From assembly GCA_003022435.1 (NCBI GenBank), contig PXUA01000008.1:124001-188000 (forward strand): 64,000 nucleotides of DNA. The letters are read 5' to 3'. Positions within the stretch are counted from its first letter, which is position 1. Each line of letters opens with the position of its first letter. Under the pieces are notes generated by a model that saw only the letters and a program-made list of their open reading frames with translations, did not search any database and was not told the DNA's origin. The translations under genes were made by a program, and so were the position numbers. Origin of the DNA: Bacteroidetes bacterium SW_9_63_38 (lineage in GTDB: Bacteria > Bacteroidota > Rhodothermia > Rhodothermales > Salinibacteraceae). Positions 3,066 through 19,402 of this stretch are shown in pieces.

Positions 3066-3686
3066 ATGAGCGATGCCCAAACCCGTCGAGTCTGGCGGGT
3101 CTTTTACACGCGGGCCCGGGCCGAGAAGACGTGCGAGGAGCGCCTGCGGGACCGTCGGATCGACGTGCTCGTGCCGAAGAAGCGGGAGACGCGGCAGTGG
3201 TCGGATCGCACAAAGGAGGTCGAGGAACCCCTTTTCCGCAACTACCTGTTTGCGCGGGTTGACGAAAAAGACCGCCTGCGCACGCTTAAGACCAACGGCA
3301 TCGTGCGCTGCGTGCATTTCCACGGGGAGCCGGCACGGCTGCGCCCGGAGACGGTCAAGCAGCTGAAAAAGACGCAGACAGCCCCGGACCGGCTGTCGGT
3401 CGTCGATTTGCGCCGTGAGCCCGGCAATCTAGATTGCCGGCGAGGACGTGGTCCTGGGCCGCGGCCCCAGGTGGGCGAGACAGTGACGATTACGGACGGC
3501 CCCGACAGCCTGCGCGGCCTCACCGGCGAGGTGCGGGAGCACCGGGGACAGACGGCCGTGCTGGTGCGGGTCGAGGCGATCCGGCAGGCCGTGAAGGTGG
3601 AGGTGTCGGGAGACTGGGTGAAAGCGGCGGACGACCGACCGCCGACCGCCGTCGGCCGCCAGTATGAAAATCAGGGCGTCAGTTAG
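3066..3686 (+). CDS. NusG-like (UpxY/RfaH family) transcription antiterminator
   Basis: 206 residues. The N-terminal NGN domain (about 8-110) has WRVFYTRARAEKTCEERL, then PLFRNYLFARV and GIVRCVHFHG, the pattern of capsule-locus NusG paralogues. A C-terminal KOW-like segment (about 138-185) reads VGETVTITDGP...GLTGEV...VLVRVEAIRQAVKVEV. Specialised NusG factors of this kind ride RNA polymerase through long polysaccharide operons, and its place just before the operon fits. Oddity: the interdomain linker (residues ~119-138) contains a 20-bp perfect DNA palindrome and reads as basic Arg/Gly/Pro sequence unlike the rest; see findings. Start ATG 3066 follows an 800-bp non-coding stretch, so the operon promoter is probably close upstream. 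Confidence 0.88.
   Translation: MSDAQTRRVWRVFYTRARAEKTCEERLRDRRIDVLVPKKRETRQWSDRTKEVEEPLFRNYLFARVDEKDRLRTLKTNGIVRCVHFHGEPARLRPETVKQLKKTQTAPDRLSVVDLRREPGNLDCRRGRGPGPRPQVGETVTITDGPDSLRGLTGEVREHRGQTAVLVRVEAIRQAVKVEVSGDWVKAADDRPPTAVGRQYENQGVS
3421..3440. repeat. 20-bp perfect palindrome inside the nusG-like gene
   Basis: The 20 bases are self-complementary; core arms GGCAATC/GATTGCC around a TA centre. The same arms around a CA centre occur in the intergenic repeat at 39051-39066, so this looks like a copy of a dispersed palindromic repeat that landed in coding DNA. Confidence 0.85.
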
Positions 3687-3719
3687 GAACAGCACTCGAC
3701 GCGAACCGCGGCTCCAACC

Positions 3720-4835
3720 GTGCGCATCCTCGCCCTCCATACGGATAGTTTCGGCGGGTATGGCGGGATCGCCGCGGCGAACCGGCATCTCCTGCGGGCC
3801 GTCTGCGCGATGGATGTGGTGGAGGAAGTCGTGGCGCTGCCCCGCCTTCAGGCCGAATCGGTCAGCAGTGCCCTGCCAAGTGGCCTGACGTTTCGGGCCG
3901 ACGCTGCTGAAGGAAAGGGCACATACCTGATGACCCTGTTGCGACACCTGGCAACGGGCCGTGCGTTCGACCTCGTCTGGTGTGGGCACCTTCACCTTGT
4001 GCCATTGGCCGTGATGGCCAAACGGCTAACCGGCGCGCCGGTGCTTCTGCACGTGCATGGTATTGAGGCGTGGAAGCCAACCGGGCGCTGGCTTACGGAT
4101 CGACTCGTCGCGCGGGTCGACGCCGTCGCCAGCGTGAGCGACACGACGAAGGAGCGGCTGGTTGAGTGGGGTGGGCTCGAGCCTGACCGCGTCACGGTGG
4201 TGCCCAATACGATCGACTTCGACGGCCTTACGCCGGGTCCCAAACCGCCATCTCTGCTGAACCGATACGACCTTCACGACCACCACGTGCTCATGACCCT
4301 GGGGCGCCTAGTCGGGAAGCAACGACGGAAGGGATTCGACCGCGTGTTGGAGGCATTGCCCGACGTGGTTGCCGAGCGGCCCAACGTGGCGTACCTGATC
4401 GTTGGGAAGGGCCCGGACCGCCCGCGGCTCGAAACGAAGGCGGAACGGCTCGACGTGCGCGACCGCGTCACGTTCACCGGGTACGTGCCTGACGACGAAA
4501 AAGCCGATCACTTTCGACTCGCGGATCGATTCGTGATGCCGAGTGAAGGCGAAGGGTTCGGCCTCGTGCTTCTGGAGGCGCTGGCCTGCGGGACGCCCGT
4601 CATTGCCAGCACACGCGACGGCGGAAAGGAGGCCGTAGCGGACGGAGAGTTTGGAACGCTTGTTGATCCCGCAGATCCCGACGAACTGATCGACGCGATT
4701 TTGGCGGAGCCAGTGCCCCCCAATCCCACGGCGGTCCGGGATCGGTTTGGATCCTCGGCGTATCGGGAACGGGTTGAGCAACTGATTCACGACGTCACTG
4801 CGGACCACGGACGGCAGTTGGCGGTTGGGGATTGA
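3720..4835 (+). CDS. GT4-family glycosyltransferase
   Basis: 371 residues with GTG start (GTG CGC ATC). The N-terminal half begins MRILALHTDSFGGYGGIAAANRHLL, with the Gly-rich loop typical of GT4 acceptor domains. The C-terminal donor domain has GRLVGKQRRKGFDRVLEAL and the EX7E signature in EGEGFGLVLLEALACGTPVIAS (about 276-300). It transfers a sugar from a nucleotide donor to the growing lipid-linked oligosaccharide at the inner face of the membrane. It overlaps a possible early TTG start of the next gene, but the better ABC exporter start is 112 bp further on. The sugar is not predictable. Confidence 0.88.
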   Translation: MRILALHTDSFGGYGGIAAANRHLLRAVCAMDVVEEVVALPRLQAESVSSALPSGLTFRADAAEGKGTYLMTLLRHLATGRAFDLVWCGHLHLVPLAVMAKRLTGAPVLLHVHGIEAWKPTGRWLTDRLVARVDAVASVSDTTKERLVEWGGLEPDRVTVVPNTIDFDGLTPGPKPPSLLNRYDLHDHHVLMTLGRLVGKQRRKGFDRVLEALPDVVAERPNVAYLIVGKGPDRPRLETKAERLDVRDRVTFTGYVPDDEKADHFRLADRFVMPSEGEGFGLVLLEALACGTPVIASTRDGGKEAVADGEFGTLVDPADPDELIDAILAEPVPPNPTAVRDRFGSSAYRERVEQLIHDVTADHGRQLAVGD

Positions 4836-4947
4836 GTTCGTATCATCGAAGATCCTCAAGCATACCAATGAATCCCAACTCACTGGTCTTGGGGAGTCAT
4901 TTAGGCATGCGGCATCTCTCACGGATTACGTTCCACGCCTCACGCAC

Positions 4948-6750
4948 ATGAGCACCTTTGGCGACCTCCTAAAATACCTTAAAATCTACCGCCGCTACCT
5001 CGGCCGGCGCATGTACTTGATCTTTGCCCTGTCGATCGGAACGGCGGCGGCCTCTGCGTTCGGCATCACGCTCCTGCTCCCATTGCTAAAAGCCTCACAG
5101 GTTGGGAGCGGATCCCCCGAGGACATGGGCACCGCCGAACAGTACCTCTACGACCTGCTGGCCTGGATGGGCATCGCCGATTCCATGGTGGGCATTCTGG
5201 CCTTTATTGCAATTGTCTTTGTCAGCAAAGGACTACTTCAGTTCGCCAAAGGGGGATACTCAGGGTATCTGCAGGCACAACTGCTCCGCGAACTGAAGAT
5301 CCAGTTGTTCGATGCCTACAGCGGGATGGATTATCGCTATTACATCCGGCAGAATGCAGGGCATTTTATCAACGTCATCAATCAGCAGGTCAATCGGTTC
5401 TTTTCATCGTTCTCGAGCTTCATCGGGTTCTTTACCCAGGTTATTACGACGACTGCCTATTTTGCGACTGCGTTCGCGATTACGTGGAAGTTTGCGAGTA
5501 TGGCCCTCGCCGTCGGGGCGGTGTTGCTCTTCCTCTTCAAGTATCTGAATGCGTACGTGCGGCGCCTCTCCCGACGCCGCTCGGAGGAGATGAGCCACCT
5601 CAATAAGTTTCTGGTGCAGTCGCTCCAGTCGTTCAAGTACATTACATCGACCAATCAGACGGCCCATCTGCGAAGTGGGGTTGTCGATAGCGTCAAGCGG
5701 CTGACGAGCTACATCTTTCGGCAACGGGCGGCGGGAGCCTTTACAAAATCCCTCAAGGAGCCAGCATCCGTGCTTCTTATTGTGGGGCTCATTGCACTCC
5801 AGGTGGCTGTCTTCAACGACCCGGTGGCGCCGATTTTCGTGGCGCTGCTGCTATTTCATCGGGGCATGCAGGCAGTGATTTCGATCCAGGGGGGATGGCA
5901 GAGCACCATGAACAAAATCGGCTCCGTCGAGATGGTGGATGGAGAGATGGAGACGGTCCTCGACCACCAAGAGAACCGGCAGGGACGGGCGCTCGGACCT
6001 CTATCGGAGGGAATGGAGTTTGACGGGGTGTACTTTGCCTATAACGAGGAAGACGGAAATGTCCTGCACGACGTAAACATCACAGTTCCGGCGACCGCGA
6101 CCGTGGCGCTCGTGGGGGAGTCCGGGGCCGGAAAGTCGACCCTGGTGGACATGATGTCCTTGTTACTGTCGCCGCGCCGGGGCGAAATTCGAATCGATGG
6201 CGTGCCGCACAACGACGTGGACCTCGCCTCTTGGCGAGACCAGATTGGATACGTGTCGCAGGAAACGGTCGTGTTCGACGACACGGTGGCCAACAACATC
6301 AGCCTCTGGCGGGGCGACATAGAAGACGACCCGGCGCTACGAGAGCGTGCGATCCGCGCCGCCGAGCGGGCACACGCCGACCACTTCATCCGCGGCCTGC
6401 CGAACGGATATCAAACCGTGGTGGGTGACCGCGGCGTGCGCCTATCCGGGGGACAGCGCCAGCGCCTCTTCGTGGCACGGGAGCTTTTCAAAGAGCCCAA
6501 TTTGCTGCTGCTGGACGAGGCGACGAGCGACCTCGACACCGCCTCCGAGCAGCATATTCAGGATAGCATAGACGCCTTAAAGGGGGAGACCACGGTTGTA
6601 ATTATCGCGCACCGACTCTCGACAGTGAAGAACGCCGACCGGGTATACGTGCTCGACGAGGGACGAGTGATCGAGTCCGGTTCCTATGAAGAGCTTCGGA
6701 TGCGCGAAAACGGGGAATTTCGAGAGATGGTGGACATGCAAAGCCTATAA
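4948..6750 (+). CDS. ABC exporter (MsbA/PglK-like, fused TM and ATPase domains)
   Basis: 600 residues from ATG 4948 (STFGDLLKYLKIYRRYLG). An in-frame TTG at 4825 would add 41 residues that overlap the previous gene and look unrelated to the family. About six membrane helices (residues ~25-310) precede a nucleotide-binding domain with Walker A GESGAGKST (~390), signature LSGGQRQR, Walker B LLLLDEATSDLD and switch His in IIAHRLST. The family exports lipids or lipid-linked oligosaccharides; PglK flips lipid-linked heptasaccharide in N-glycosylation loci. No Wzx flippase was seen in the window, so this is the best candidate for moving the repeat unit across the membrane (inference). Confidence 0.9.
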   Translation: MSTFGDLLKYLKIYRRYLGRRMYLIFALSIGTAAASAFGITLLLPLLKASQVGSGSPEDMGTAEQYLYDLLAWMGIADSMVGILAFIAIVFVSKGLLQFAKGGYSGYLQAQLLRELKIQLFDAYSGMDYRYYIRQNAGHFINVINQQVNRFFSSFSSFIGFFTQVITTTAYFATAFAITWKFASMALAVGAVLLFLFKYLNAYVRRLSRRRSEEMSHLNKFLVQSLQSFKYITSTNQTAHLRSGVVDSVKRLTSYIFRQRAAGAFTKSLKEPASVLLIVGLIALQVAVFNDPVAPIFVALLLFHRGMQAVISIQGGWQSTMNKIGSVEMVDGEMETVLDHQENRQGRALGPLSEGMEFDGVYFAYNEEDGNVLHDVNITVPATATVALVGESGAGKSTLVDMMSLLLSPRRGEIRIDGVPHNDVDLASWRDQIGYVSQETVVFDDTVANNISLWRGDIEDDPALRERAIRAAERAHADHFIRGLPNGYQTVVGDRGVRLSGGQRQRLFVARELFKEPNLLLLDEATSDLDTASEQHIQDSIDALKGETTVVIIAHRLSTVKNADRVYVLDEGRVIESGSYEELRMRENGEFREMVDMQSL

Positions 6751-6798
6751 GGAGATAAAAAATCTTAAGGTATAATAGTCCCTATAAACAAGTATTAG

Positions 6799-7509
6799 AT
6801 GAAAGACACATTCCTCGGGGCTGTAGCTGATGTTCTCCGTCAACTTCCCGATCCCTTTTGCCGGCTTCCCGATGAGTGGAGACAGGCTCGCCTACGCCAC
6901 GAAATTGAACAGCGTATCAGTGGTGCCGACTCCGGCTGGAAGCCCCAAACGAAAGTGTTCGGGATCGGCCTGAGTAAAACCGGTACGACGTCCCTGGCTC
7001 ATGCCCTCGATCATCTGGGCTATAATGCTCTGCATTGGAGAAGAGAGGGAAAGACCCTTGGATGGCCCGAATTCCTTTATGCTGATGCAGCGACGGATGC
7101 TCCGTGCTCCTCACAATTCGAGGCTCTGTACCACACGTTTGAGAAGTCGAAGTTTATCTACACGGTACGAGACATCGACGGCTGGGTGCAGTCTATTCGA
7201 AGGCATTATGGAGGGATGGAAAAGCCAGTTGAATTGCGGCGTCGAGCGAAACGGAAGGAATACGACGATCAATGGGAAATGTACAATCGCATCCGCAAGG
7301 TGCAGATCCGTGAATGCCTTTATGCCCAGCATGAGACCTGGGCAGCGGCCTACCGCGCGTTCGACAGTCGGGTTCGGTCGTTTTTCGAGGACAAGCCTGA
7401 AGAACGGTTTCTGGAGATGAACATCATAGATGGAGACAGGTGGGACACATTGTGTTCTTTTCTCGGACACGAGGTTCCCAGCCGGCCGTTTCCGCATCGC
7501 AACCGCTGA
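6799..7509 (+). CDS. sulfotransferase (Sulfotransfer_4-like)
   Basis: 236 residues. The PAPS 5'-phosphosulfate loop is KVFGIGLSKTGTTSL (residues 52-66), followed by AHALDHLGY. The 3'-phosphate-binding region is KFIYTVRDIDGWVQSIRRHY (about 115-135). These two motifs and the size fit the cytoplasmic sulfotransferase subfamily with a KTGTTS loop. It presumably moves sulfate from PAPS to a sugar hydroxyl of the polysaccharide. First of seven sulfotransferases here; the closest relative in the window is 27671-28279. Confidence 0.87.
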   Translation: MKDTFLGAVADVLRQLPDPFCRLPDEWRQARLRHEIEQRISGADSGWKPQTKVFGIGLSKTGTTSLAHALDHLGYNALHWRREGKTLGWPEFLYADAATDAPCSSQFEALYHTFEKSKFIYTVRDIDGWVQSIRRHYGGMEKPVELRRRAKRKEYDDQWEMYNRIRKVQIRECLYAQHETWAAAYRAFDSRVRSFFEDKPEERFLEMNIIDGDRWDTLCSFLGHEVPSRPFPHRNR

Positions 7510-8089
7510 AACAAAAAACCAGGAGAGGTAGAGGCGCACCGGGAATGAACCAAAATCTACGAGAAACAGATTTGACTGTGGCTCAGCGGTATGATGGCCT
7601 GTCGTTTCCCTGACGCGCATGGAGCCGTTTTTCTTTACCACGGAATCGGATGATGTGGCTGAAGCTGTCGCCCCATTTGAGACGGGTCTGAGACGGATCT
7701 CGGGATGGACATTCCATTTGGAACGGTCGAAGTACGAATTGACAACTCGATTGGAGCCAACTCGTCGGTTTCGTCCCATTTGCCACAGGGGCTAGGACGG
7801 TGTTCAAAAAGTGTTATTTGCGCCCGGAAATAGGAACCGAAATCGTCGTTTGTAGCGGCTCAAGCAGGGGTTAATAACAGCATACCCCCAAAATCACCCC
7901 CTTCTTGACCAGCCTCCTAGGGTCGTTTAAAGAAATCGCCTCGCCGGTGGCTTCTTTGAAGAGGAAGGATGGCGAGTCCGGTACTACGAGGAACTCGGAG
8001 TGGCGAAATGCAGGACTTATATCTCGGCAGACGATCAACAGCGGACTTTGCGTATAATTTGGATTTCTTTTCTTTAAAGCACGTAGCAC
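7510..8089. other. 580-bp stretch without a recognisable gene
   Basis: No reading frame with family resemblance on either strand. Composition is lower in GC than the flanks. It lies just before the truncated legB-like fragment and probably holds the promoter and debris of an older rearrangement. Confidence 0.5.
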
Positions 8090-8377
8090 ATGCCCAACGT
8101 CCTCGTCACCGGTGCCGGGGGATTTATCGGATCGCACCTCGCGGAAGCCCTCGTCGAGCGGGGGAACGACGTGCGGGCGTTTGTCCGCTACAACGCCTTC
8201 AACCGGTGGGGTTGGCTCGACACGATTGAGGATGACGTGCTAAACGAAATCGATACCTTTTCCGGGGACGTGCGGGACCCGAACGGTGTGCGGGAGGCGA
8301 TGCGGGGGGGCGACGTGGTGTATCACCTCGCGGCGCTGATCCCGATTCCGTACTCACTTCCACGGGCCTCGTGGTAG
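8090..8377 (+). pseudogene. 5' fragment of a LegB-like NAD-dependent sugar 4,6-dehydratase gene
   Basis: 95 residues. Starts MPNVLVTGAGGFIGSHLAEAL (Rossmann GxxGxxG) and continues with RYNAFNRWGWLDTI and GDVRDPNGVREAMRGGDVVYHLAALIPIPYS, closely following the N-terminal third of LegB-type SDR dehydratases, which are normally ~330 residues. The match ends at IPYS, just before the conserved loop preceding the catalytic YxxxK, and a stop follows at 8375. The catalytic core is missing, so it cannot be active. It forms the left scar of the nonulosonate module; the right scar is at 15187-15684. Confidence 0.82.
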
Positions 8378-8425
8378 GGTCAGAGAGGAAACCGTAGTAA
8401 TCCAACTCAACCATCTGTCTTTCTA

Positions 8426-9469
8426 ATGGTCGATCTAGATGGAAAGGACATTTTAATTACCGGTGGCACCGGGTCGTTCGGCAAGAAGTGCACGGAAATC
8501 GTCCTGGACAGGTATGAGCCCAACCGGCTCATCATCCTGAGTCGGGATGAGCTCAAGCAGGCGAAAATGAAGAGCCGCTTTTCGCCGCAGGAGCACCCAT
8601 GTATGCGCTACTTCATCGGCGATGTGCGGGAGAAAGACCGGCTTTGCCGAGCGTTCACGGACGTGGATATTGTGATTCACGCGGCGGCCTTGAAACGCGT
8701 GCCGGCGGCGGAGTATAATCCGATCGAGCCGATCAAGACGAACGTGATGGGGGGAAGCAACGTGATCGAGGCGGCGATTGACCGGGACGTAGACCGGGTG
8801 ATTGCGCTGAGCACGGACAAGGGGGCCAATCCGGTCAACCTCTATGGCGCGACGAAGCTCTGTGCGGATAAGCTCTTCGTGGCGGGCAACAACTACTCAG
8901 GACAGGGAGGTACCCGTTTCAGTGTCGTGCGGTACGGAAATGTCGTAGGGAGCCGGGGGAGCGTGATTCCGTTCTTCTTGGAGAAGCGGGAAACCGGAAC
9001 GCTCCCGATTACCGACCCGCGAATGACCCGCTTCTGGATTACGCTGGAGCAGGCCGTCGACTTTGTGCTGAACAATTTGGTCCGGATGGAGGGGGGCGAA
9101 GTCTTTGTGCCGAAGATTCCGAGTATGGAGATCACGGACCTGGCGGAGGCGATTGCACCGGACTGCGACCACGAGATTGTGGGCATCCGGCCCGGAGAGA
9201 AGCTCCATGAGGTCATGATTCCTCGGAACGTGTCGCGGCGCACGCTGGAGTTTGAGGACTATTACTCCGTTCTGCCTGCATTTCGGGACTGGGATCGTGA
9301 CGGGTATCAGAAGGAGAACGGGGGCACGTGGTGCGAGGACCAGTTTAGATATGGGAGCGACACGAATGAGCATTGGCTGACGGCCGAGGAAATCCGGGAC
9401 ATGATCGGTCTTGACGATGAAGAGTATTCCCGGCCCGACGGAGAGACAAGAGCGACGGCCGCCGAATAG
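8426..9469 (+). CDS. pseB: UDP-N-acetylglucosamine 4,6-dehydratase (inverting), PseB
   Basis: 347 residues. Rossmann motif ITGGTGSFGKKCTEIVL (about 10-26), active-site region ALSTDKGANPVNLYGATK (about 129-146), then RYGNVVGSRGSVIPFF and GIRPGEKLHEVMI. This matches PseB, which removes water and inverts C5 of UDP-GlcNAc to give the 4-keto-6-deoxy-L-sugar, the first step to pseudaminic acid. It is followed by pseC after 46 bp. The truncated LegB-like gene just upstream is an unrelated dehydratase subfamily, so this gene is the functional dehydratase of the module. Confidence 0.93.
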   Translation: MVDLDGKDILITGGTGSFGKKCTEIVLDRYEPNRLIILSRDELKQAKMKSRFSPQEHPCMRYFIGDVREKDRLCRAFTDVDIVIHAAALKRVPAAEYNPIEPIKTNVMGGSNVIEAAIDRDVDRVIALSTDKGANPVNLYGATKLCADKLFVAGNNYSGQGGTRFSVVRYGNVVGSRGSVIPFFLEKRETGTLPITDPRMTRFWITLEQAVDFVLNNLVRMEGGEVFVPKIPSMEITDLAEAIAPDCDHEIVGIRPGEKLHEVMIPRNVSRRTLEFEDYYSVLPAFRDWDRDGYQKENGGTWCEDQFRYGSDTNEHWLTAEEIRDMIGLDDEEYSRPDGETRATAAE

Positions 9470-9515
9470 GCCTGATAGGTACGCCTACTCATTGATTACA
9501 CTGGGGCAGCATACC

Positions 9516-10724
9516 ATGGAGCATGTAGTTGAAACCGAAGAACTTGCGATCGATGGGGGCACGCCGGTCCGCGATGAGACCCTTGCCTACGGAGGGCAAA
9601 CCATCGAGGAGGAGGATGTGGAGGCCGTCGCGGAGACGCTGCGTTCCGACTGGCTTACGACGGGTCCGACGGTCGAGGCCTTCGAAGAAGAATTTGCCGA
9701 CTTCGTGGGCACCGAGGAGGCGGTGGCTGTGAGCAACGGCACGGCGGCCCTGCACGCGGCGATGCACGCAATCGGCATTGGCCCCGGCGATGAGGTGATC
9801 GTGCCGACCCTTACCTTTGCGGCGACCGCCAACAGCGTCGTATTCGAGGGCGGGACGCCCGTGTTTGCCGACGTGGATCCGGAGACGCTCCTCCTCGATC
9901 CGCAGAGCGTAAAGGAGCGTATTACGGAGGACACGAAGGCCGTGGTCGGGGTCGACTACGTGGGGCAGCCGTGCCGGTACGATGCGCTTCGCGAAATTTC
10001 CGACGCCCACGATCTGGTGCTCCTCGACGACGCGTGTCACGCAACGGGGGGCACGTACAAAGGCAAACCGGTTGGCTCTCTGGCGGACCTGAATACATTT
10101 AGCTTCCATCCGGTTAAAAACATGACGACCGGAGAAGGAGGAATCGTGACGACAAACAACAGCGAGTGGGCCGATCAGATGCGGCGGTTTCGAAACCACG
10201 GCATCACCAGCACGCACCACGAGCGGGCCGAAAAAGGATCCTGGTACTACGAGGTGGCCAACCCCGGCCGGAACTACCGGCTGACAGACTTTCAGTGCGC
10301 CTTAGGAATCAGCCAGCTCCAGAAACTGCCGGGATGGGTGGAGCGTCGGCGAGAGACTGCCCACGCGTACGACGAGGCATTTGCGCCAATAGAGGCCGTT
10401 GAGCCGGTTACACAGCGCGATGATTCAATTTGTGCCTACCACCTCTACGTCATCCAGTTGGAGTTGAACCAGCTGCGGGGGGATCGCGAACAGATCTTCA
10501 ATGCGCTTCAGGCTGAGGGCATTGGGGTGAACGTTCATTACATCCCGGTCCACTACCATCCGTATTATCGGGATTATTTTGGGACGGAAGAGGGCCTCTG
10601 CCCAACGGCCGAGGCAGCATACGAACGGATTATAACACTTCCAGTTTTTCCCCGCATGACGGATGAGGACATTGAAGATGTATCTGAGGCTGTCCGAAAG
10701 GTTGTAAACGTGTATGAGCATTGA
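9516..10724 (+). CDS. pseC: UDP-4-amino-4,6-dideoxy-L-altrosamine transaminase, PseC
   Basis: 402 residues from ATG 9516. An in-frame start at 9411 would overlap pseB and lacks family resemblance. It is a DegT/DnrJ/EryC1 PLP aminotransferase: IDGGTPVRDETLAYGGQTIEEEDVEAV, SDWLTTGPTVEAFEEEFA, then SNGTAALHAAM, and the PLP lysine in NTFSFHPVKNMTTGEGG (about 189-205), the pattern of PseC. It adds the 4-amino group to the PseB product. An AT-rich 83-bp leader separates it from the next gene. Confidence 0.93.
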   Translation: MEHVVETEELAIDGGTPVRDETLAYGGQTIEEEDVEAVAETLRSDWLTTGPTVEAFEEEFADFVGTEEAVAVSNGTAALHAAMHAIGIGPGDEVIVPTLTFAATANSVVFEGGTPVFADVDPETLLLDPQSVKERITEDTKAVVGVDYVGQPCRYDALREISDAHDLVLLDDACHATGGTYKGKPVGSLADLNTFSFHPVKNMTTGEGGIVTTNNSEWADQMRRFRNHGITSTHHERAEKGSWYYEVANPGRNYRLTDFQCALGISQLQKLPGWVERRRETAHAYDEAFAPIEAVEPVTQRDDSICAYHLYVIQLELNQLRGDREQIFNALQAEGIGVNVHYIPVHYHPYYRDYFGTEEGLCPTAEAAYERIITLPVFPRMTDEDIEDVSEAVRKVVNVYEH

Positions 10725-10807
10725 GCGAATAGGGGCAAAAAAATATAAAAGAAATAAGGGTTTCCAAAAGGCATACCATTACTACTAGAAAATAAGCACT
10801 GGTAAAA

Positions 10808-12604
10808 ATGGACTTAAGAAATGTTGAAGTAATAGCTGAGTTGGCAAACGCTCACGGAGGTGACCGATCTCGGGCCATCGACATGGTCGAGAGCATATCA
10901 GATTCGGCTGACGTGGCAAAAGTACAAGTCTTTACGGCCTCCGACCTGGCAGTCGAGTCACACGAAAACTACGACCTGTATCAAGATCTTTCGCTTTCTG
11001 CGAGCGATATAGAAAAAATGGTTGAGTCGGCACATGAGGCTGGAATACAACTTTTTGCGGATATTCTAGGCCATGAGGGGCTTGAGCGTGCTATAGGAAT
11101 AGAAATCGACGGTTTCAAAATACACAGTTCTGACCTGTCAAATTATCGACTAATAAAGAAGATTGCCGAAGAAAATAAGCCTACACTGATCTCGGTGGGG
11201 GGGGCGACAAGTCTGGAAATAAAAGAGGCTGTATCTTCGTTCAAAAATGTCTCGACTGCAGATATTGCACTTGTATATGGATTTCAAAACTATCCTACGA
11301 AGTTGAAGAAATCTCATTTAAACAGACTAAGGCACCTCGTCGCCCAATTTGATGATATATGTATGGTTGGTTACGCAAGCCACGTCGAGGGGAGTATGGC
11401 TGAGGCCAAGCATCTTCCAGCATGGGCAGTTGCAGCGGGGGCTGACTTCGTAGAGGTACACACGACGTTGGATAGGTCGGCGGAAGGGCCCGACTACTAC
11501 TCCTCGCTGGAACCGGACGCGTTTGAAATGATGTCCGCGAACATCGAAAAAGTTCGGGAAGTGATGGGTGAAGATGCTCACGAAATGTCGAAGGGTGAAA
11601 TCGAGTATCGACACGCTCATAAAAAATGCGCGGTAGCTACTCGAGAGCTTTGCGTCGGAGATACTGTTACTAAAGATGATGTAGACCTCAAGCGGCCTGT
11701 AAGCTGGGACGAGTCGGTAGTAACTAATATCGATAAAATTGCAAAAAAAAGTGTTACTCGCAATGTGAAAGAAGATACTCCTGTACGGTTGAGTGACGTA
11801 CAGAATAAAGTTTCTGCGGTGCTTGCATGCCGAGCAGAATCAACACGTCTGTATGGAAAGCCACTGCAACTAGTCGGAAAAAAATCGATCCTTGCACACC
11901 AAATCTCACAGCTAAAAACTGTAACTGCACTTGACGAAATCGTACTTGCAATTAGTGATACTCCCGCGAAGCAAGCATTCGTAAGTTTTGCAGAAGACTA
12001 CGATCTAAAGTACTTCGTTGGTGGCAAAAAAGATGTACTCGGAAGAGTAGTAAAAGCAGCTCGTCAAGTAGAGTCCGAATTTGTTGTTAGAACAACGACT
12101 GAAAATCCTTTTATTTACCAAGAGTCAGTAGGAGAGCAGATAAGTATTGCGATCGAAAAGAATTCAGACCTTGTTGTGTCAAGAAAACTTCCACTCGGGT
12201 CGTTTACCGAAGTGGTATCAGTTAATGCACTACAGCGATCCCACGAAAATGGTGAAGATAGACATAGAAGTGAGCTCGTTACGTCTTTCATCACTGAGCA
12301 TCCTGAGTCTTTCGAAATTATTGGAGTCAACCCACCGAACTCGCTGAGGCGCCCGGACGTTCGTCTGACGGTGGACAACCCATGTGACTTAATATTGGTA
12401 AGAAAAATATGGAATAACCTGCCCAAAAAGAGAGACAAGTACGATCTGAAAAGCATAATAGATGTGTACGACAAAAAGGGGCTAAAAAGTATAAACATTA
12501 CTGAGCCTGATGGAAATAGCAAAAGTGTGATCAGTACTTCTTGGCACGTGTATGGGGAAATAGATAGAAATATGGAGGTCTTCGATACGGCTATAAATAA
12601 ATAA
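10808..12604 (+). CDS. nonulosonate synthase (NeuB/SpsE-like)-SAF-cytidylyltransferase (SpsF-like) fusion
   Basis: 598 residues, three parts. Residues ~1-270 resemble a NeuB-type TIM barrel: EVIAELANAHGGD, VAKVQVFTASDL, KIHSSDLSNYRL, GFQNYPT, VGYASHVEGS, and EVHTTLDR. A SAF-like segment (~275-335) starts KKCAVATRELCVGDTVTKDDV. Residues ~336-598 resemble SpsF-type cytidylyltransferases (ACRAESTRLYGKPL, then DEIVLAISD, RTTTENPF and RPDVRLTVDNP). It sits between pseC and pseG, where pseF normally lies, so it could supply CMP activation. Whether the synthase half condenses phosphoenolpyruvate with a sugar is unknown, since pseI is also present. Codon use is clearly more AT-rich than its neighbours, with an AT-rich leader, indicating transfer. 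Confidence 0.78.
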   Translation: MDLRNVEVIAELANAHGGDRSRAIDMVESISDSADVAKVQVFTASDLAVESHENYDLYQDLSLSASDIEKMVESAHEAGIQLFADILGHEGLERAIGIEIDGFKIHSSDLSNYRLIKKIAEENKPTLISVGGATSLEIKEAVSSFKNVSTADIALVYGFQNYPTKLKKSHLNRLRHLVAQFDDICMVGYASHVEGSMAEAKHLPAWAVAAGADFVEVHTTLDRSAEGPDYYSSLEPDAFEMMSANIEKVREVMGEDAHEMSKGEIEYRHAHKKCAVATRELCVGDTVTKDDVDLKRPVSWDESVVTNIDKIAKKSVTRNVKEDTPVRLSDVQNKVSAVLACRAESTRLYGKPLQLVGKKSILAHQISQLKTVTALDEIVLAISDTPAKQAFVSFAEDYDLKYFVGGKKDVLGRVVKAARQVESEFVVRTTTENPFIYQESVGEQISIAIEKNSDLVVSRKLPLGSFTEVVSVNALQRSHENGEDRHRSELVTSFITEHPESFEIIGVNPPNSLRRPDVRLTVDNPCDLILVRKIWNNLPKKRDKYDLKSIIDVYDKKGLKSINITEPDGNSKSVISTSWHVYGEIDRNMEVFDTAINK

Positions 12605-12613
12605 AAATTTGTT

Positions 12614-14122
12614 GTGCACAGTCCGCTTTTCATTCGAGCCGACGCGTCGCGGGAGATTGGCACCGGGCACGTCATGCGGTGCCTCGCGCTGGCCCAGGCC
12701 TGGCAGGAAAAGGGAGGGCAGGTGCATGTGCGGGGCCGCATGCCGGGCGAGCTGCGCGCGCGATTGGTCGGGGAGGGGGTTGAGTTCATCGAGGTGGAGG
12801 AAGAGGGTGGAACTTCGGCAGACGCACAGGCCACTGCTGCGTGTGCCCAGGAGATTGGGGCTTCTTGGATCGTCGTGGACGGGTACCACTTTGGAGCAGC
12901 CAACCAGCAAAATTTGCGGGAGGCGGGGCATCGGGTACTCTTCGTTGACGACTATGGTCACGCAGACCGCTACGAGGCGGACCTCGTGCTCAACCAGAAC
13001 ATCGACGCGGAGGACGGCCTCTACGCCGATCGGGCCGAGCATACGGATCTCCTGCTGAGACCAAAGTTTGCGCTTCTGCGGAAGGAGTTTTGGCCGTGGC
13101 GGGTGCCCCGCCGGGAGATCCGCGCGGAGGCCGAGCACATTCTGGTTACGCTCGGCGGAGCGGACCCCGACAATGTGACCACGGAGACGGTTAAGGCGCT
13201 CGGGACCGTGGAGGCCTCCGGAGTCCGGGCGACCGTGGTGATTGGCGGGAGCAATCCCCACGAGAATGCGATCCAAGTGGCGGCCGAGTCTGCCCATGTG
13301 CCGATTGACGTACGGCAGAATGTCGATGACATGGCCGAGCTGATGGCCGATTCTGACGTTGCCGTGTCGGCGGGGGGAAGCACATGCTGGGAGCTGGCGT
13401 TCATGGGCATTCCGAACGTGATCGTGGTGCTCGCGGAGAACCAGAAAGGCATCGCACGCGGGCTCGGTGATGCCGGAGCGGCTATCAATCTCGGCTGGCA
13501 CGAGGAAATTCGGGCGTCGGAAATCGAGTCTGCCGTCGGATCGCTGCTCCGAAATGAGCGAAAGCGGCGTCGGATGGCCGGCGAAGCTCAGGCGCTCGTC
13601 GACGGATGGGGCACTGAGCGCGCCGTGTCCGCAATGGCAGGCGAACTATTTCTTCGACCCGCTCAAGAGCAAGACTGTGAGCTCCTCTGGGAGTGGGCAA
13701 ACGACCCAGTGGTTCGAGAGCGATCGTATAATTCGGATCCTATCCCACTAAAGGAGCATGAGAACTGGTTCTCGGGGAAGCTCAAGGATCCGTCTTCGAA
13801 AATATATATTGCCGAAGAACGAGGAAAGCCAGTTGGGGAAGTTCGTTTCGATGTCAAGGAGGAGGCTGCAGTTGTAAGCGTTGTTGTAGATTCAGAGTAT
13901 CGTGGTAAAGGATACGGTACTGAGCTCATTCGACAAGGAACTAGGCACTTTCTCAGCGAGAATAGTGATGCTTATCGTGTAGATGCATTCATAAAGGAAA
14001 CCAATAAGCCCTCTGTGAGGGCTTTCGAGAAGGCTGGATACATGCATCAGGAAGACTTAGTCAGAAACGGTGATGCCTCCTACCGCTTTGCTTTTTCAAA
14101 GAGTGAACTGGATGAAACGTGA
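12614..14122 (+). CDS. PseG-PseH fusion (UDP-sugar hydrolase plus GNAT N-acetyltransferase)
   Basis: 502 residues, GTG start 10 bp after the previous stop. Residues 1-~335 are PseG-like: FIRADASREIGTGHVMRCLALAQAW, then VDGYHFG, VTLGGADPDN and VSAGGSTCWELAFMG, a GT-B-like hydrolase that removes UDP. Residues ~340-502 are a GNAT domain (LFLRPAQEQDCELLWEWANDP, SVVVDSEYRGKGYGTELI, NKPSVRAFEKAGY) matching PseH, which acetylates the C4 amine. Fusion of these two pathway enzymes is plausible since their reactions are consecutive. The GNAT half is visibly lower in GC than the PseG half, suggesting a mosaic join at the domain border. It ends in a 4-bp GTGA overlap with pseI. Confidence 0.9.
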   Translation: MHSPLFIRADASREIGTGHVMRCLALAQAWQEKGGQVHVRGRMPGELRARLVGEGVEFIEVEEEGGTSADAQATAACAQEIGASWIVVDGYHFGAANQQNLREAGHRVLFVDDYGHADRYEADLVLNQNIDAEDGLYADRAEHTDLLLRPKFALLRKEFWPWRVPRREIRAEAEHILVTLGGADPDNVTTETVKALGTVEASGVRATVVIGGSNPHENAIQVAAESAHVPIDVRQNVDDMAELMADSDVAVSAGGSTCWELAFMGIPNVIVVLAENQKGIARGLGDAGAAINLGWHEEIRASEIESAVGSLLRNERKRRRMAGEAQALVDGWGTERAVSAMAGELFLRPAQEQDCELLWEWANDPVVRERSYNSDPIPLKEHENWFSGKLKDPSSKIYIAEERGKPVGEVRFDVKEEAAVVSVVVDSEYRGKGYGTELIRQGTRHFLSENSDAYRVDAFIKETNKPSVRAFEKAGYMHQEDLVRNGDASYRFAFSKSELDET

Positions 14123-15165
14123 CAGATTTTTACGTCAACGGACGAAAGATTGGTGGAGAGGCCTCTGTCTACGTTGTTGCTGAAATGTCGGCCAACCACA
14201 ATCAAAACTTTGACCGAGCCGTCGAAATCGTCGGGGCTGCGGCGGAGGCAGGGGCAGATGCTGTAAAGCTTCAGACGTTCCGTCCCGATACAATCACGAT
14301 CGACAGCGAAAAAGAGCCCTTTCAAATCAGGGAGGGCCCGTGGAAGGGACGAACCCTGTACGACCTCTACGAAGAGGCCTACACGCCCTGGGACTGGCAG
14401 CCGAAACTTCAGGAGATTGCCCACGATCACGGGTTGGATCTGTTTTCCTCTCCATTCGATCCAACGGCCGTCGACTTCCTCGAAGAGATGGACGTGCCGG
14501 TCTACAAGATCGCCTCGTTCGAAAACGTCGACCTGCCACTGGTTCGGCGGGTAGCCGTGACCGGCAAGCCCACGATCATGTCGACGGGGATGGCTACGCT
14601 GGCCGAGATCGACGAAGCCGTGCGGGCATACCGGGAGGCGGGCGGAAAGAATTTATCCCTGCTCGCCTGCACGAGCTCCTACCCGGCCCCGCCGGAGGAG
14701 ATGCACCTGCGCCGCATTCCGCACCTCGCGGAGACCTTCGATGTGGTGCCGGGTCTCTCCGACCACACGCTCGGGACCGAGGTTCCTGTGGCCGCCGTAT
14801 CGTTGGGGGCTCGAATCGTCGAGAAGCACCTTACGCTCTCTCATGACGACGAAGGACCGGATAGCGACTTCTCGCTGGAGCCGGACGAGTTTGCCGAGAT
14901 GGTTCAGGCAGTGCGGAAGACGGAGAAGGCCCTCGGGGAGGTGCGCTACGAAACGACGGAGAAAGAGTCGGAGAGTAAGACATTCCGTCGATCGTTGTTT
15001 GCGGTGCAAGATATCGAGGAAGGAGAAGCTTTCACCAAGGAAAATGTGCGGAGCATTCGGCCCGGCGATGGACTCCATACGCGACATTACCACGAAGTGC
15101 TTGACGGTGAGGCAGCACAAGATATCGCTCGGGGCGTGCCACTCGACTGGTCGCTTGCCCGGTAG
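14119..15165 (+). CDS. pseI: pseudaminic acid synthase, PseI
   Basis: 348 residues. NeuB-type barrel: VVAEMSANHNQNFDRAVEIV, then DAVKLQTFRPDTITID, VPVYKIASFENVDLPLV, CTSSYPAPPEEMHLRRI, LSDHTLGTEVPVAAV and EKHLTLSHDDEGPDSDFSLEP. A C-terminal SAF domain (about 285-348) starts RRSLFAVQDIEEGEAFTKENV. The GPDSDFSLEP form and the ANH motif fit PseI, which condenses the 2,4-diacetamido sugar with phosphoenolpyruvate to give pseudaminic acid. Start GTG overlaps the pseG-pseH stop (GTGA), so translation is probably coupled. Confidence 0.93.
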   Translation: MTDFYVNGRKIGGEASVYVVAEMSANHNQNFDRAVEIVGAAAEAGADAVKLQTFRPDTITIDSEKEPFQIREGPWKGRTLYDLYEEAYTPWDWQPKLQEIAHDHGLDLFSSPFDPTAVDFLEEMDVPVYKIASFENVDLPLVRRVAVTGKPTIMSTGMATLAEIDEAVRAYREAGGKNLSLLACTSSYPAPPEEMHLRRIPHLAETFDVVPGLSDHTLGTEVPVAAVSLGARIVEKHLTLSHDDEGPDSDFSLEPDEFAEMVQAVRKTEKALGEVRYETTEKESESKTFRRSLFAVQDIEEGEAFTKENVRSIRPGDGLHTRHYHEVLDGEAAQDIARGVPLDWSLAR

Positions 15166-15186
15166 TGAACGACCAGCCTTGGGGAG

Positions 15187-15684
15187 ATGATTGCCTTGCA
15201 AAGACGCGAAGAACGGAGCCGCGAGGAGCAGCGACTCGGCACAGCGGGTCCCCTGTCGCTGCTTCCGGAGTGGCCTGGCGAACCCCTCATTGTGATGAAC
15301 GGCGATCTGCTCACGAAGCTCAACTTCGCCCACCTGCTCGACTACCACCGCAACCAGGAAGCCATTGCGACGACGTGCGTGCGCGAGCATAAGACACAGG
15401 TGCCCTACGGCGTCATCGAGACGGAGGAGCAGCAGATGACGGGGATCGAGGAAAAGCCCACGGAGCGGTACTTCGTGAACGCCGAGATCTACGTCCTGGA
15501 ACCCGAGACGCTCGGTCTCGTGCCCGGGAACGAGTTCTTCGACATGACCGAGCTGTTCGAGGCAATAATCGAGCGGGAGGCCGAGGCCAGCGTGTTTCCC
15601 GTTCGGGAGTACTGGCAGGACGTGGGGCAGAGGGAAGACTTTCGTCGCGCTAATGGAGAGTATGAGGAGGCTTTCGACGAATGA
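15187..15684 (+). pseudogene. 3' fragment of a PtmE-like sugar-phosphate nucleotidyltransferase gene
   Basis: From about 15222 the frame reads REEQRLGTAGPLSLLPEWPG, then PLIVMNGDLLTKLNF, YGVIETEEQQMTGIEEKP, VNAEIYVLEPE and YWQDVGQREDFRRANGEY. This is the second half of CBS-domain-linked nucleotidyltransferases of the PtmE type (about 350 residues), which make the GDP-sugar starting the legionaminic acid route. The CBS domains and the GGxGTRL-type nucleotide loop are absent, so the product should be inactive even though a 165-residue frame remains open. It overlaps the next gene by 4 bp (ATGA), the spacing expected in an intact leg operon. Confidence 0.78.
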
Positions 15685-16394
15685 TTAACGATCACAGTGT
15701 ACTCGGCGTTATTCTGGCGCGGCGCGGGTCGAAGGGGCTCCCTCGAAAAAATGTGCGCGACCTCGCCGGAAAACCGCTCATAGCGTGGACGATCGAGGCC
15801 GGGTACGAGTCGGAGTACCTGGATCGGCTCATCTTGTCCAGCGACGACGAGGAAATCATGGAGGTGGTTGAGGAATATGGCTGCGACGTGCCGTTTCGGC
15901 GTCCGGCAGAGCTCGCAGAGGACGACACGCCGAGCATGGACGCCCTCCTCCACGCCCTGGATCAGATGCCAGACCACGACTACGTCGTTCTTCTACAGCC
16001 CACCTCACCCCTACGCACGGCGGAGGACGTCGACGCTACCATCGAACGATGCCATCAAACGGAAGCCCCGGCCTGCGCCACCGTCACCGAAACCGACGAG
16101 CCGCCGCAATGGATGCACACGCTGAATGACGAGCATCGGCTGGAGCCCGTATTGGACTCTGACGAAGCCGTTACACGCCGGCAGGAAGCCCCGACGACCT
16201 ACGTGCTTAACGGAGCGGTGTATGTGGGGCGTACAGACTGGCTTAGAGAAACGAGGGATTTTGTGACAGACCCGACCCGTGCGCACGTCATGCCCAGGAA
16301 ACGGTCTGCAGACGTGGACACGGCGCTGGATTTGGCCTGGTGTGAGTGGTTAGTTAATCACAAACATATCCGGACTATTGGAGAGGATTCGTAG
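15681..16394 (+). CDS. CMP-nonulosonate cytidylyltransferase (LegF/NeuA-like)
   Basis: 237 residues. GVILARRGSKGLPRKNVRDLAGKPLIAWTIEA (residues ~8-40) is the CTP-binding start of CMP-sialate synthetases. YVVLLQPTSPLRTAEDVD, TYVLNGAVYVG and the late SADVDTALDLAWCEWL follow. The GSKGLPRKN form and GKPLIAWTI are closer to LegF/NeuA than to PseF, which usually has SKRIPRKN. It activates a nonulosonic acid with CTP. Coupled by overlap to the PtmE-like remnant, it may be a survivor of a legionaminate operon now serving, or trying to serve, pseudaminate. Confidence 0.88.
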   Translation: MINDHSVLGVILARRGSKGLPRKNVRDLAGKPLIAWTIEAGYESEYLDRLILSSDDEEIMEVVEEYGCDVPFRRPAELAEDDTPSMDALLHALDQMPDHDYVVLLQPTSPLRTAEDVDATIERCHQTEAPACATVTETDEPPQWMHTLNDEHRLEPVLDSDEAVTRRQEAPTTYVLNGAVYVGRTDWLRETRDFVTDPTRAHVMPRKRSADVDTALDLAWCEWLVNHKHIRTIGEDS

Positions 16395-16456: not shown

Positions 16457-17302
16457 ATGTCCCCTGATTTTGTCATCGTTGGTGCAATGAAGTCAGGCAC
16501 CTCGACACTGGCACATCACCTCCGGCAGCACCCGGAGATATACATGCCGAGAGGAGAGCTCCACTTCTTCGACGCCCGAGGCAAGTATGCGGATCGATGG
16601 GAACGAGGCGTAGAATGGTACGAACAGCAGTTCGAAGACGCTTCGCCGACGGATCTATGCGGGGAGAAAACGCCGACCTATTCCTATCTCCCGTCTGTGC
16701 CAAAGAAAATGAGCCGGGTTGTGCCGGACGCCAAGCTCCTCTGGATTTTTCGGAATCCTGTAGATCGAGCGTACTCCAACTACTGGCACGCCGCCTGCGC
16801 AGGAAGCGAGTGGCTGAGTTTTGAAGAGGCCGTTCGGCGGGAAGAGGCGCGCATAGAGGAGAACATTTGGAAGGGATACGTCCGTCGCAGCCAGTACATC
16901 GAACAGGTTGACCGTTTTCTAGACTACTTTGACCGTGAGGTGATGCACTTCAGTCAACTAGAAGACTTCAAAGAAGCCCCAAGATCGGTTCTCCGAGAGA
17001 TTTGTCATTTTCTCGGGGTAGACGAACAGCTCGTTGACCTGGAGTCTAATTTGGATCGAAAAAATGTCACGGTAGCTCCTCGCTCTGTTTCCGCGCGTTA
17101 CCTTGCCCGAGGCATTTTGGGCAACGTGCCAGTTCTCGGTTCTCTGGCCAAGAAACTCGAGTACAAAATCAATCGTCGAGAGCACTCGGGATACCCGGAA
17201 CTTTCGTCGGCACTGCGGGCGCAACTCGAACGCCACTTCGCGCCATACAACCGACGGCTCGAAGAACGAGTCGGGATCGACGTGAGCGTGTGGACGACAT
17301 AA
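16457..17302 (+). CDS. sulfotransferase (Sulfotransfer_1-like)
   Basis: 281 residues. The 5'-phosphosulfate loop is at the very N-terminus (FVIVGAMKSGTSTLAHHL, residues 5-22), followed by HPEIYMPRGELHFFD. The 3'-phosphate motif LLWIFRNPVDRAYSNYWHA lies near 95-113. The layout matches the heparan-sulfate-type PAPS sulfotransferase family used on polysaccharides. It follows the CMP-nonulosonate gene after 62 bp. The acceptor is unknown. Confidence 0.88.
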   Translation: MSPDFVIVGAMKSGTSTLAHHLRQHPEIYMPRGELHFFDARGKYADRWERGVEWYEQQFEDASPTDLCGEKTPTYSYLPSVPKKMSRVVPDAKLLWIFRNPVDRAYSNYWHAACAGSEWLSFEEAVRREEARIEENIWKGYVRRSQYIEQVDRFLDYFDREVMHFSQLEDFKEAPRSVLREICHFLGVDEQLVDLESNLDRKNVTVAPRSVSARYLARGILGNVPVLGSLAKKLEYKINRREHSGYPELSSALRAQLERHFAPYNRRLEERVGIDVSVWTT

Positions 17303-17362: not shown

Positions 17363-19402
17363 GTGAAAAAAGGGTCCCCTGAAGTACATGTTCTTGGCCC
17401 GGTAGACCAGCCGGAAGAGGTTGTCCAGGTCATTCTGGATCAGGTGCAAGAGGACGCGGTTCTCCTCGATCTGAGCGCCGGCCAGCTCATTACACCTCAC
17501 GACCTTAGGAAGCGGGTAGAAGCCAAGAGAGGATTGCCGGAACAGGTTGTATGGGAGAATGGACAGCAGTACGCGGACGCCTGCGCCGAGGCCTCGCGTC
17601 GGGCCTACGTCGAGTGGGTTGCCCAGCAGGGGGAGGCACCGCTCGCCGGCCAACAGACCGTTAAAGAGTTGTTCGTCTATAACGGTGAGATCTCCCTTTG
17701 GTGGTTTATCCCTTTGACCATCAAACATTCGGTAAATGCGCGGTATCGATGGTTGTTTTACATGGCCCAGGTCCTGGATCATATCCAGGAACATAGGTCC
17801 GACGTTCGGGACTGGCATTTATGGACTTCCACGGAAACGATGGGTCAGGCTCTTAAAACTTCGTGTCCTGAGGACGCGCAAGTTCACCTGCACGCTCTAC
17901 AGGATGGAAACGGATGGCGAGATCGTTTTGCCGTACTCGAAACGCTGCGTCGCGGGCTCGGGCTGGTCTATCTTTTCGTTCGTCGCAGTGCGAACCTTCT
18001 TCTCCAAATGGTCAGCAGGCCATCGGGGGAGGAGGGAGAGGAAGCAGGCATCATACAGAGGGAGGATTCCGACTCTCCGGTGATTTTGTTCGCGACGAGA
18101 TTTCCGCACTCGTGGGTATCGACAGACGCGGAGGAATACGACCGGGACGTTGACTATGTGGACCGATATTTCGAGACGGCGCCGTGGCGACTACGGGATC
18201 GAGGATGTGCCGTGGCCTGGATGCCATTGATGCCGGAGGAAGCGACCGAGCAGTGGGCGCACCGGGGATCACAGGCACTTCCCGACGTCTCCTCCACGAT
18301 GGAGCTTCGATGGTCGACCCTCGCCAGCATCACCGGAACGGTCTTTATGTGGGTTGCCGTCTATTTGTGGAATTTCGAAGTGCGGTCCATTGACGGAGTG
18401 TGGACGTACAGAGGGGTCGATTTTGGGGGGCACGTGCGAAGTGAAATCCGGAGAGCCGTAAGCGGGGGACTTGGGTTGCTCCAGAAAGTTGAGAAGATTC
18501 GGGCGGCCGGGCGGGCCGTACAGCCTGATGCAGTATTGTACCGGAACGAGTTTTATAAAAGCGGGCGCCGGATTTCCGCAGCCTTGCAGGGAGAGGCGAC
18601 TCTGATCGGGGTACAGCACGGCCTCATCGGACGGGAGCATACCGTCTATCACTTCCACAATTCCGAAATCAATTTATCGGACATGAACGCAGCCGATCAT
18701 ATTGCCCATTGCCCTTTGCCTGATTACTTTGCGAGCTTCGGAGACAGGTTCGTAGGACTATTTGAGGAATGGGAGGGGTTTCCTGCCGATCGGGTTTGGG
18801 CCGTGGGAGGGCTGCGCCATGATTCACTCATGGAAAAATATCGTGGTATGTCGGCTAAAGAAAAGACAGCGTTGCGAACGAGGTTTGGACTGCCGTTGGG
18901 GCAACCAATCGTGCTCTTGTGTACCGGAGTGCGGTCACACGTGGGGCCGTGGACGCGGATGGTCCTCGGAGCACTGCAGACAATAAAGACGGATTGTGTT
19001 CTGGCCGTAAAACCACACCAGTACCATGGGGGAGAAGAGGAAGCGCGCACCGCTGCCGAGGAGATGGGTGGCGCGAATCTCAAGCTGTACGAGGAGGGGA
19101 TTTATCCGCTCATAGCGGCGTCGGACGCAGTAGTTGCTGGGGGCTCGACGGTGCTTCTCGAAGCAGGGCTCTTAGATACGCCGCCGGTGGCATTACAGCC
19201 TCCGACTTCCTATCAGCATTACGATTTTGAGGGCGTCGCCCGGACGGCTACCACACGAGAGGAATTGATCAACGAGCTAAAAATCATTTTCGTGGAAGGA
19301 TGGATGCCCAAAGACGTATCCGGGCACCTTAGAAATGTGAAGCAAAGAGCGAGCGATCGTCTTCTGGATTATATTCGTAGTCATGAGTTCAGTACGTCCT
19401 GA
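17363..19402 (+). CDS. large GT-B-like surface-carbohydrate transferase
   Basis: 679 residues, GTG start. Residues 1-~350 have no feature I recognise. The C-terminal half resembles GT-B proteins of capsule and teichoic loci: RISAALQGEATLIGVQHGLIGRE (the QHG motif), VWAVGGLRHDSL, VLAVKPHQYHGGEEE and ASDAVVAGGSTVLLEAGLL. This arrangement occurs in surface-carbohydrate biosynthesis proteins of uncertain specificity. Its position directly after the nonulosonate module makes transfer of the CMP-activated acid a reasonable guess, but nothing in the sequence proves the donor. Confidence 0.62.
   Translation: MKKGSPEVHVLGPVDQPEEVVQVILDQVQEDAVLLDLSAGQLITPHDLRKRVEAKRGLPEQVVWENGQQYADACAEASRRAYVEWVAQQGEAPLAGQQTVKELFVYNGEISLWWFIPLTIKHSVNARYRWLFYMAQVLDHIQEHRSDVRDWHLWTSTETMGQALKTSCPEDAQVHLHALQDGNGWRDRFAVLETLRRGLGLVYLFVRRSANLLLQMVSRPSGEEGEEAGIIQREDSDSPVILFATRFPHSWVSTDAEEYDRDVDYVDRYFETAPWRLRDRGCAVAWMPLMPEEATEQWAHRGSQALPDVSSTMELRWSTLASITGTVFMWVAVYLWNFEVRSIDGVWTYRGVDFGGHVRSEIRRAVSGGLGLLQKVEKIRAAGRAVQPDAVLYRNEFYKSGRRISAALQGEATLIGVQHGLIGREHTVYHFHNSEINLSDMNAADHIAHCPLPDYFASFGDRFVGLFEEWEGFPADRVWAVGGLRHDSLMEKYRGMSAKEKTALRTRFGLPLGQPIVLLCTGVRSHVGPWTRMVLGALQTIKTDCVLAVKPHQYHGGEEEARTAAEEMGGANLKLYEEGIYPLIAASDAVVAGGSTVLLEAGLLDTPPVALQPPTSYQHYDFEGVARTATTREELINELKIIFVEGWMPKDVSGHLRNVKQRASDRLLDYIRSHEFSTS

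Follow-up and report, generated by a model that had tools for sequence, protein, structure and literature searches.

The exchange of legionaminate (leg) and pseudaminate (pse) biosynthesis genes is already known from bacterial surface-polysaccharide loci. In the related capsule loci KL5 and KL46 of Acinetobacter baumannii, the central segment is made up of either leg genes (lgaABCDEFG) or pse genes (psaABCDEF) (PMC6586298). Salinibacter ruber carries replacement flexible genomic islands with O-antigen clusters, rich in sulfotransferases and glycosyltransferases and variable between strains at one place, and this variation has been linked to recombination and gene transfer (PMC6060240). Mosaic nonulosonate clusters are described from Vibrionaceae and Moritella, where the first part of the Aliivibrio leg cluster and its PtmE-NeuA part are of different affinity, and where an SpsF-like domain, linked to an aldo-keto reductase in a two-domain enzyme, may stand in for NeuA (PMC7371886). 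Here we describe a locus in Bacteroidetes bacterium SW_9_63_38 (2.84 Mb assembly in 19 contigs, 83.8% complete), within a stretch of 64,000 nucleotides referred to as the window (contig PXUA01000008.1; G000:C8:124001-188000), in which the interior of a legionaminate operon was very probably replaced by a pseudaminate cassette, with the cut ends of legB and ptmE kept on its two sides.

As in KL5 and KL46, leg and pse segments appear to have been exchanged within related surface-polysaccharide loci; that exchange is module for module, whereas here the joints lie within legB and ptmE, so that the cut ends of both genes are left together with an intact legF (PMC6586298). The S. ruber islands are treated as wholes, and the accessible part of that report mentions neither leg or pse genes nor gene-internal joints (PMC6060240). 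For the Vibrionaceae and Moritella clusters, the accessible text describes no leg-to-pse switch with scars, and the partner of the SpsF-like domain is an aldo-keto reductase there but a NeuB-like synthase in the window (PMC7371886). Among the matches listed from the openly licensed literature, whose texts were available in part, there was no description of this locus and none of a NeuB-SpsF fusion. The locus is a well-preserved example, with gene-internal scars, of an exchange that alters the acidic surface sugar and is usually inferred from whole-module differences. With both breakpoints visible inside named genes, it offers a mappable case from a free-living lineage; it also suggests that the ptmE-legF end can persist after the loss of its pathway.

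Remnants of legB and ptmE around the pse genes

We compared the window with genomes sampled at one per species (12 others of its genus, 26 others of its family, an order-level sample of 114 and a phylum sample of 395) and with the best 80 of 169 matching named pse loci. All open reading frames (ORFs) of the original prediction were found where it had placed them (Table 1). The ORF at the left edge of the pse genes matches the LegB profile TIGR04180 (6.6e-39) over positions 1-87 of 297, and its codons 3-89 are 60-72% identical to full-length LegB of four genomes (G040, G058, G063 and G107). Its identification as LegB was upheld, the retained part being the N-terminal quarter of the protein. Similarity ends at about position 8356 in both protein and DNA, inside the residues IPYS. 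At the right edge, the match of the ptmE ORF to PF00483 is confined to the later part of that profile (positions 80-243 of 245), and its identity to the intact PtmE of three genus members (G001, G005 and G006) is 76-82%. This ORF too is what it had been called, but what had been described as a 3' half is somewhat less, 154 of about 350 codons. Its first ~11 codons have no clear PtmE homology. They begin with MIALQR where the gene of G063 begins with MIAWQQ, which could mark the true ptmE start followed by an internal deletion, six residues being too few to decide. In both remnants it is the end towards the pse genes that is missing. Neither the CBS part nor the GGLGTRL stretch is left in the ptmE piece, and of LegB nothing remains beyond the N-terminal quarter; given what is known about the two enzymes, neither piece can be a working member of its family.

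We found no sign that such short forms are conserved. At E<=1e-20, PtmE was present in 13 of the 114 order-level genomes and LegB in five; the 12 other PtmE genes have open frames of 290-450 residues (171 in the window), the four other LegB genes 334-393 (96 in the window), and short forms of either were found in none of the other genomes in this sample. Within the genus, three of 12 other genomes contain PtmE and LegF, and none a close LegB (best 47%). The window's own genome, at 84% completeness, has no second copy of LegB, PtmE, LegF or LegI, members of the GDP-linked legionaminate pathway; its only NeuB-family genes are the synthase fusion and pseI, leaving it without LegI. LegC, LegG and LegH are absent from the interval between the remnants, no genome-wide search having been made for these three.

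The 4-bp overlap of the ptmE remnant with the following gene, which the original prediction had likened to an intact operon, is found likewise in G063, G001, G005 and G006. That gene, an intact legF as predicted, is 67-73% identical to the leg-operon LegF of G001, G005 and G006 and 60% to that of G063. Against TIGR03584 it reaches 155 bits, below the cut-off of 206, as does the LegF of G063 (146 bits). No curated model of PtmE or LegF matched, and these two names were assigned by match to the CBS-nucleotidyltransferase and cytidine monophosphate (CMP)-transferase genes in leg operons of relatives.

Between the remnants, PseB, PseC, PseG and PseI all score above their curated cut-offs (408, 424, 154 and 340 bits, respectively), with pseB and pseI complete. 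The predicted PseH is a weak match (39 bits; cut-off 93), lying as C-terminal domain of PseG in its expected place, and PseG-PseH fusions occur in other pse loci as well. The listed pseC ORF starts at a TTG at 9411, the true start probably lying near 9516. No other genome of the genus (0 of 12) has PseI at this level; three have LegI-type genes at 34-44%. In the phylum sample, PseI was found at a threshold of 1e-90 in 55 of 395 genomes including that of the window, the best of the others being G074 (same family, other genus; 73%), and PseI matches in the named loci reach at most 69% and are scattered over phyla.

Table 1. Locations of the features discussed, in the window (upper rows) and in loci of other genomes (last three rows)
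Feature	Location	Strand	Details
ABC (ATP-binding cassette) exporter, resident upstream border of variable glycan locus	4825..6750	+	69-81% matches in 9 of 26 other family genomes
Sulfotransferase (Sulfotransfer_4)	6799..7509	+	PF17784, 2.1e-33
580 bp without recognisable gene	7510..8089	+	between sulfotransferase and legB remnant
legB 5' remnant	8090..8377	+	homology 8090-8356, codons 1-89 of ~333; then unrelated codons and stop
Left junction zone, legB remnant/pseB	8357..8425	+	LegB homology stops at ~8356
pseB	8426..9469	+	TIGR03589, 515 bits; 81% to G074
pseC	9411..10724	+	TIGR03588, 451 bits from codon 58; 70% to G074
NeuB-like synthase fused to SpsF-like CMP-transferase, pseF position	10808..12604	+	PF03102, PF08666, PF02348
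pseG-pseH fusion	12614..14122	+	TIGR03590, 220 bits; TIGR03585, 39 bits; 51% to G074
pseI	14119..15165	+	TIGR03586, 489 bits; 73% to G074
Right junction zone, pseI/PtmE homology	15166..15219	+	
ptmE 3' remnant	15187..15684	+	homology from ~15220, last 154 of ~350 codons
legF (PtmB-like CMP-transferase of leg operons), intact	15681..16394	+	4-bp overlap with ptmE remnant
Sulfotransferase	16457..17302	+	56% to L028:15565-16392, 3' of legF in G005
Genus leg-type operons	L027 (reverse complement) 2879-11635; L028:1786-14544; L029:3820-13907		
Formyltransferase-like and PIG-L deacetylase genes of G074	L142 (reverse complement) 11387-12782		between pseGH and pseI
NeuB-like/SpsF-like pairs	L168:8265-10073; L170:6229-8004; L171:9114-10985; L169 (reverse complement) 9872-11725; L172 (reverse complement) 4805-6576		

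Intact leg operons of relatives and the history of the locus

The order-level genome G063 has an intact leg operon bounded by the same genes, arranged as legB-legC-legG-legI-legH-ptmE-legF. Its genes score above the cut-offs for LegB (522 bits), LegC (543), NeuC-type legG (474), NeuB-type legI (480) and NeuD-type legH (224). In all three order-level loci long enough to show it (G058, G063 and G107), LegB opens an operon with PtmE near its end; the loci of G058 and G107 also have a LegF-like gene there, with one gene between in G058, while the contig of G040 ends too early to show the operon end. The stretch between LegB codon 89 and the point where the retained PtmE part starts measures 5,377 bp in G063 and 6,863 bp in the window. 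No such operon was found within the genus: G001, G005 and G006 have intact ptmE-legF, but in leg-type operons (at about 789-799 kb in G006) that begin differently.

In these genus operons, LegC, a NeuC-type gene, LegI, PtmE and LegF follow a nucleotide-sugar dehydrogenase and a short-chain dehydrogenase/reductase (SDR). The SDR of G006 weakly resembles UDP (uridine diphosphate)-4-keto-pentose synthase (88 bits; cut-off 294); if the SDR acts as a decarboxylase, these operons could yield an eight-carbon legionaminate analogue. We also observed that the order-level genomes G091 (C5:205091, 240700) and G106 (C32:72147, 98660) each have PseI at one place and a long PtmE-like gene at another, and both pathways may therefore coexist in one genome.

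Under the replacement reading, a leg operon (legB to ptmE-legF, followed by a sulfotransferase gene) would have stood in a variable glycan locus 3' of a resident ABC exporter, and the part between legB codon 89 and roughly mid-ptmE (5.4 kb in G063) would have given way to a 6.9-kb pse segment, most closely related, in the genomes searched, to the pse operon of G074. Because the junction zones share no direct repeat, we infer that the imported DNA was integrated independently of homology, whether in a single step or in several; the data fit both non-homologous integration and insertion followed by deletion. The cell would now make CMP-pseudaminate instead of CMP-legionaminate, with the CMP step presumably done by the fusion protein, and legF would be a redundant leftover, perhaps still expressed.

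Several observations weigh against this replacement. The longest direct match shared by the two junction zones is 5 bp, where random pairs average 6.7, and a 9-bp inverted match between 8327-8335 and the right zone has a length reached by 4% of 150 random direct pairs, the null having been drawn for direct matches. The SDR at the head of the genus leg-type operons is not LegB (120 bits in G006; cut-off 475), and the exact ancestral operon, with a LegB start and a genus-type ptmE-legF, was present in no genome searched. GC content at third codon positions (GC3) lends weak support to the replacement by being 0.81 in both leg remnants and 0.65-0.75 in the pse genes, but at 0.70 legF is like the pse genes, and composition gives no clean leg/pse divide. 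Branch lengths are also somewhat high, at 0.23 for the LegB remnant (0.10-0.22 in near relatives) and 0.33 for LegF (0.16-0.29 in the genus), whose nonsynonymous divergence (dN) is 0.22-0.27 compared with 0.14-0.19 among the others; these values could reflect weaker constraint, a new role or simple divergence. Further, six of the 80 named pse loci (L079, L083, L086, L098, L103 and L120) have a LegF-like gene (30-43%) 3' of pseI, and therefore a CMP-transferase there is not by itself a leg remnant. We considered LegF as a member of the pse operon and dropped this idea, its closest counterpart in those 80 loci being 43% identical (L098) versus 58-73% for the leg-operon LegF of the genus and G063. 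Lastly, the assembly is fragmented and 84% complete, so that a chimeric join is conceivable.

The original prediction had read the locus as a single recombination. The leg-to-pse swap itself withstood our analysis, neither of the two refuting observations named with that prediction having turned up, but a single event is not shown: an insertion with a later deletion would lead to the same arrangement, and the fusion gene speaks for another replacement within the pse cassette. That two or more steps were involved, with the pse cassette inserted in or beside the leg operon and the leg interior deleted later, is possible, though we would not call it probable. Such a course is compatible with the lack of a common direct repeat, and also with a breakpoint in G074 that lies, on the same side, inside legF rather than ptmE, as progressive erosion would give. 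Both cut ends in the window face the pse genes, however, and no leg gene is left among the ORFs from 8377 to 15187.

The pse operon of G074, a 3-contig genome, consists of pseB, pseC, an ordinary pseF, pseGH, a formyltransferase-like gene, a PIG-L gene and pseI. The genes common to both loci stand in the same order, and in G074 a LegF remnant follows directly on pseI, with similarity to LegF residues 153-226 (the C-terminal half) beginning at the pseI stop codon. The best matches of this remnant are leg-operon LegF proteins (46% in G001, 53% in G063), with CMP-transferases of other loci scoring lower and no match to PseF reaching 1e-3. The ordinary pseF and the additional formyltransferase-like and PIG-L genes set G074 apart from the window, and remnants of legB or ptmE were not found there. 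A pse cassette thus abuts a broken leg 3' end twice in the family, with different breakpoints and cassette content, and the replacement either recurred or is old. Relatives of the G074 PIG-L (35-36%) and formyltransferase (23%) genes occur in the genus leg-type operons.

An unlikely alternative is that the two remnants stem from different events, a genus-type operon having been replaced while an unrelated legB piece came with the pse DNA or earlier. The lack of LegB in the genus leg-type operons speaks for it, as do the best relatives of the LegB fragment, which belong to other families of the order. It is opposed by the position of LegB and PtmE at the start and near the end of one operon in G058, G063 and G107, by cut ends that face each other, and by the equal GC3 of the two remnants, though legF differs.

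The reading frames themselves bear on the age of the replacement and on a possible function. Both leg remnants are free of internal stops and coding-like, with a ratio of nonsynonymous to synonymous divergence (dN/dS) well below 1. Compared with the three genus members, the PtmE remnant has a dN of 0.11-0.15 and a dS of 1.0-1.6, while dN among those three is 0.13-0.15; its branch is like those of intact orthologues. We take this as a rough sign only that the cut is young, synonymous sites being near saturation. It is very unlikely that the short ORFs are instead functional in a stable arrangement, for example as a leader coupling legF translation: open frames, low dN/dS and the preserved legF overlap would fit, but recent truncation also gives low dN/dS, both pieces lack the parts named above and the short forms recur in no genome searched. 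Also very unlikely is an assembly chimera of leg-carrying and pse-carrying strains, which the state of the assembly and the variable genes behind the border exporter would allow but which would need two joins without a shared direct repeat, both at pse-operon borders, and which would leave the similar pse/legF join of G074 to be explained.

A synthase-transferase fusion in the pseF position

The predicted fusion of a synthase and a CMP-transferase was borne out, as the 598-residue ORF contains NeuB, SAF and CTP_transf_3 domains. Ordinary PseF is absent from the window, and its slot is taken by this fusion with an SpsF-like domain. Among the named pse loci, 49 of 80 have PseC and PseI by our criteria, with a CMP-transferase between them in 41 of these, elsewhere in three and none found in five; none of the 80 has a NeuB-CMP-transferase fusion, and no relative emerged when named genomes were scanned with this protein. 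GC3 is 0.45 in the NeuB-like part and 0.37 in the transferase part, below that of the surrounding pse genes. The fusion gene is probably a nested replacement within the pse cassette, which suggests that the CMP-activation step can be exchanged as a module of its own.

In the phylum sample, the fusion protein matched 28 of 395 genomes at a threshold of 1e-25, many through the NeuB part alone. Five genomes that we examined match both parts at 23-37%, either fused (G176 and G435) or as adjacent genes (G263, G268 and G319). The pair stands in pse loci in G176 and G435 (PseB and PseI over cut-off) and in G268 (by BLAST), and in G263 and G319 in loci of leg type that also hold LegC and a PtmE-like gene, where it lies behind ptmE, the usual place of legF; G319 has LegB and G263 another SDR. 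Using our own profiles of both transferase types (built from 26 and 47 sequences), we found the pair to be the only CMP-transferase in these five 18-19-kb stretches. Judged from these arrangements, it most likely carries out CMP activation in the leg as well as the pse pathway and is apparently an exchangeable activation module, which in turn suggests that LegF in the window is probably left over.

The NeuB-like half may be either a second synthase or an accessory domain. Judged by eye from an alignment, the window copy retains Glu, Lys and His at the positions where PseI and LegI conserve them, and in G263 and G319 one conserved Lys is lost. We regard it as improbable that this hybrid locus, with two phosphoenolpyruvate-condensing synthases and two CMP-transferases, makes a second or mixed nonulosonate with LegF recruited for a sugar other than legionaminate, and that this family repeatedly turns leg into pse operons at the leg 3' end.

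Border and neighbouring genes

The ABC exporter upstream of the legB remnant was found at E<=1e-100 across the family, five of the nine genomes with a copy belonging to the genus of the window, and the genes 3' of it differ among the eight loci that we read. Being widespread with variable genes behind it, it is therefore a resident border gene. In G074 the exporter directly precedes pseB, and we considered that it might have been imported with the pse DNA; this was dropped in view of the family-wide copies and the differing genes behind them. The 580 bp in front of the legB remnant have no DNA match in the 12 other genus genomes and only weak matches in the fetched loci (best translated E 0.03, best DNA E 0.06), and are probably decayed DNA. 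Downstream, a 679-residue protein (17363-19402) behind the second sulfotransferase matches no Pfam family. It shares 20-28% identity over 93-238 residues with leg- or pse-locus proteins of G176 and G001, and could possibly be a nonulosonate transferase.

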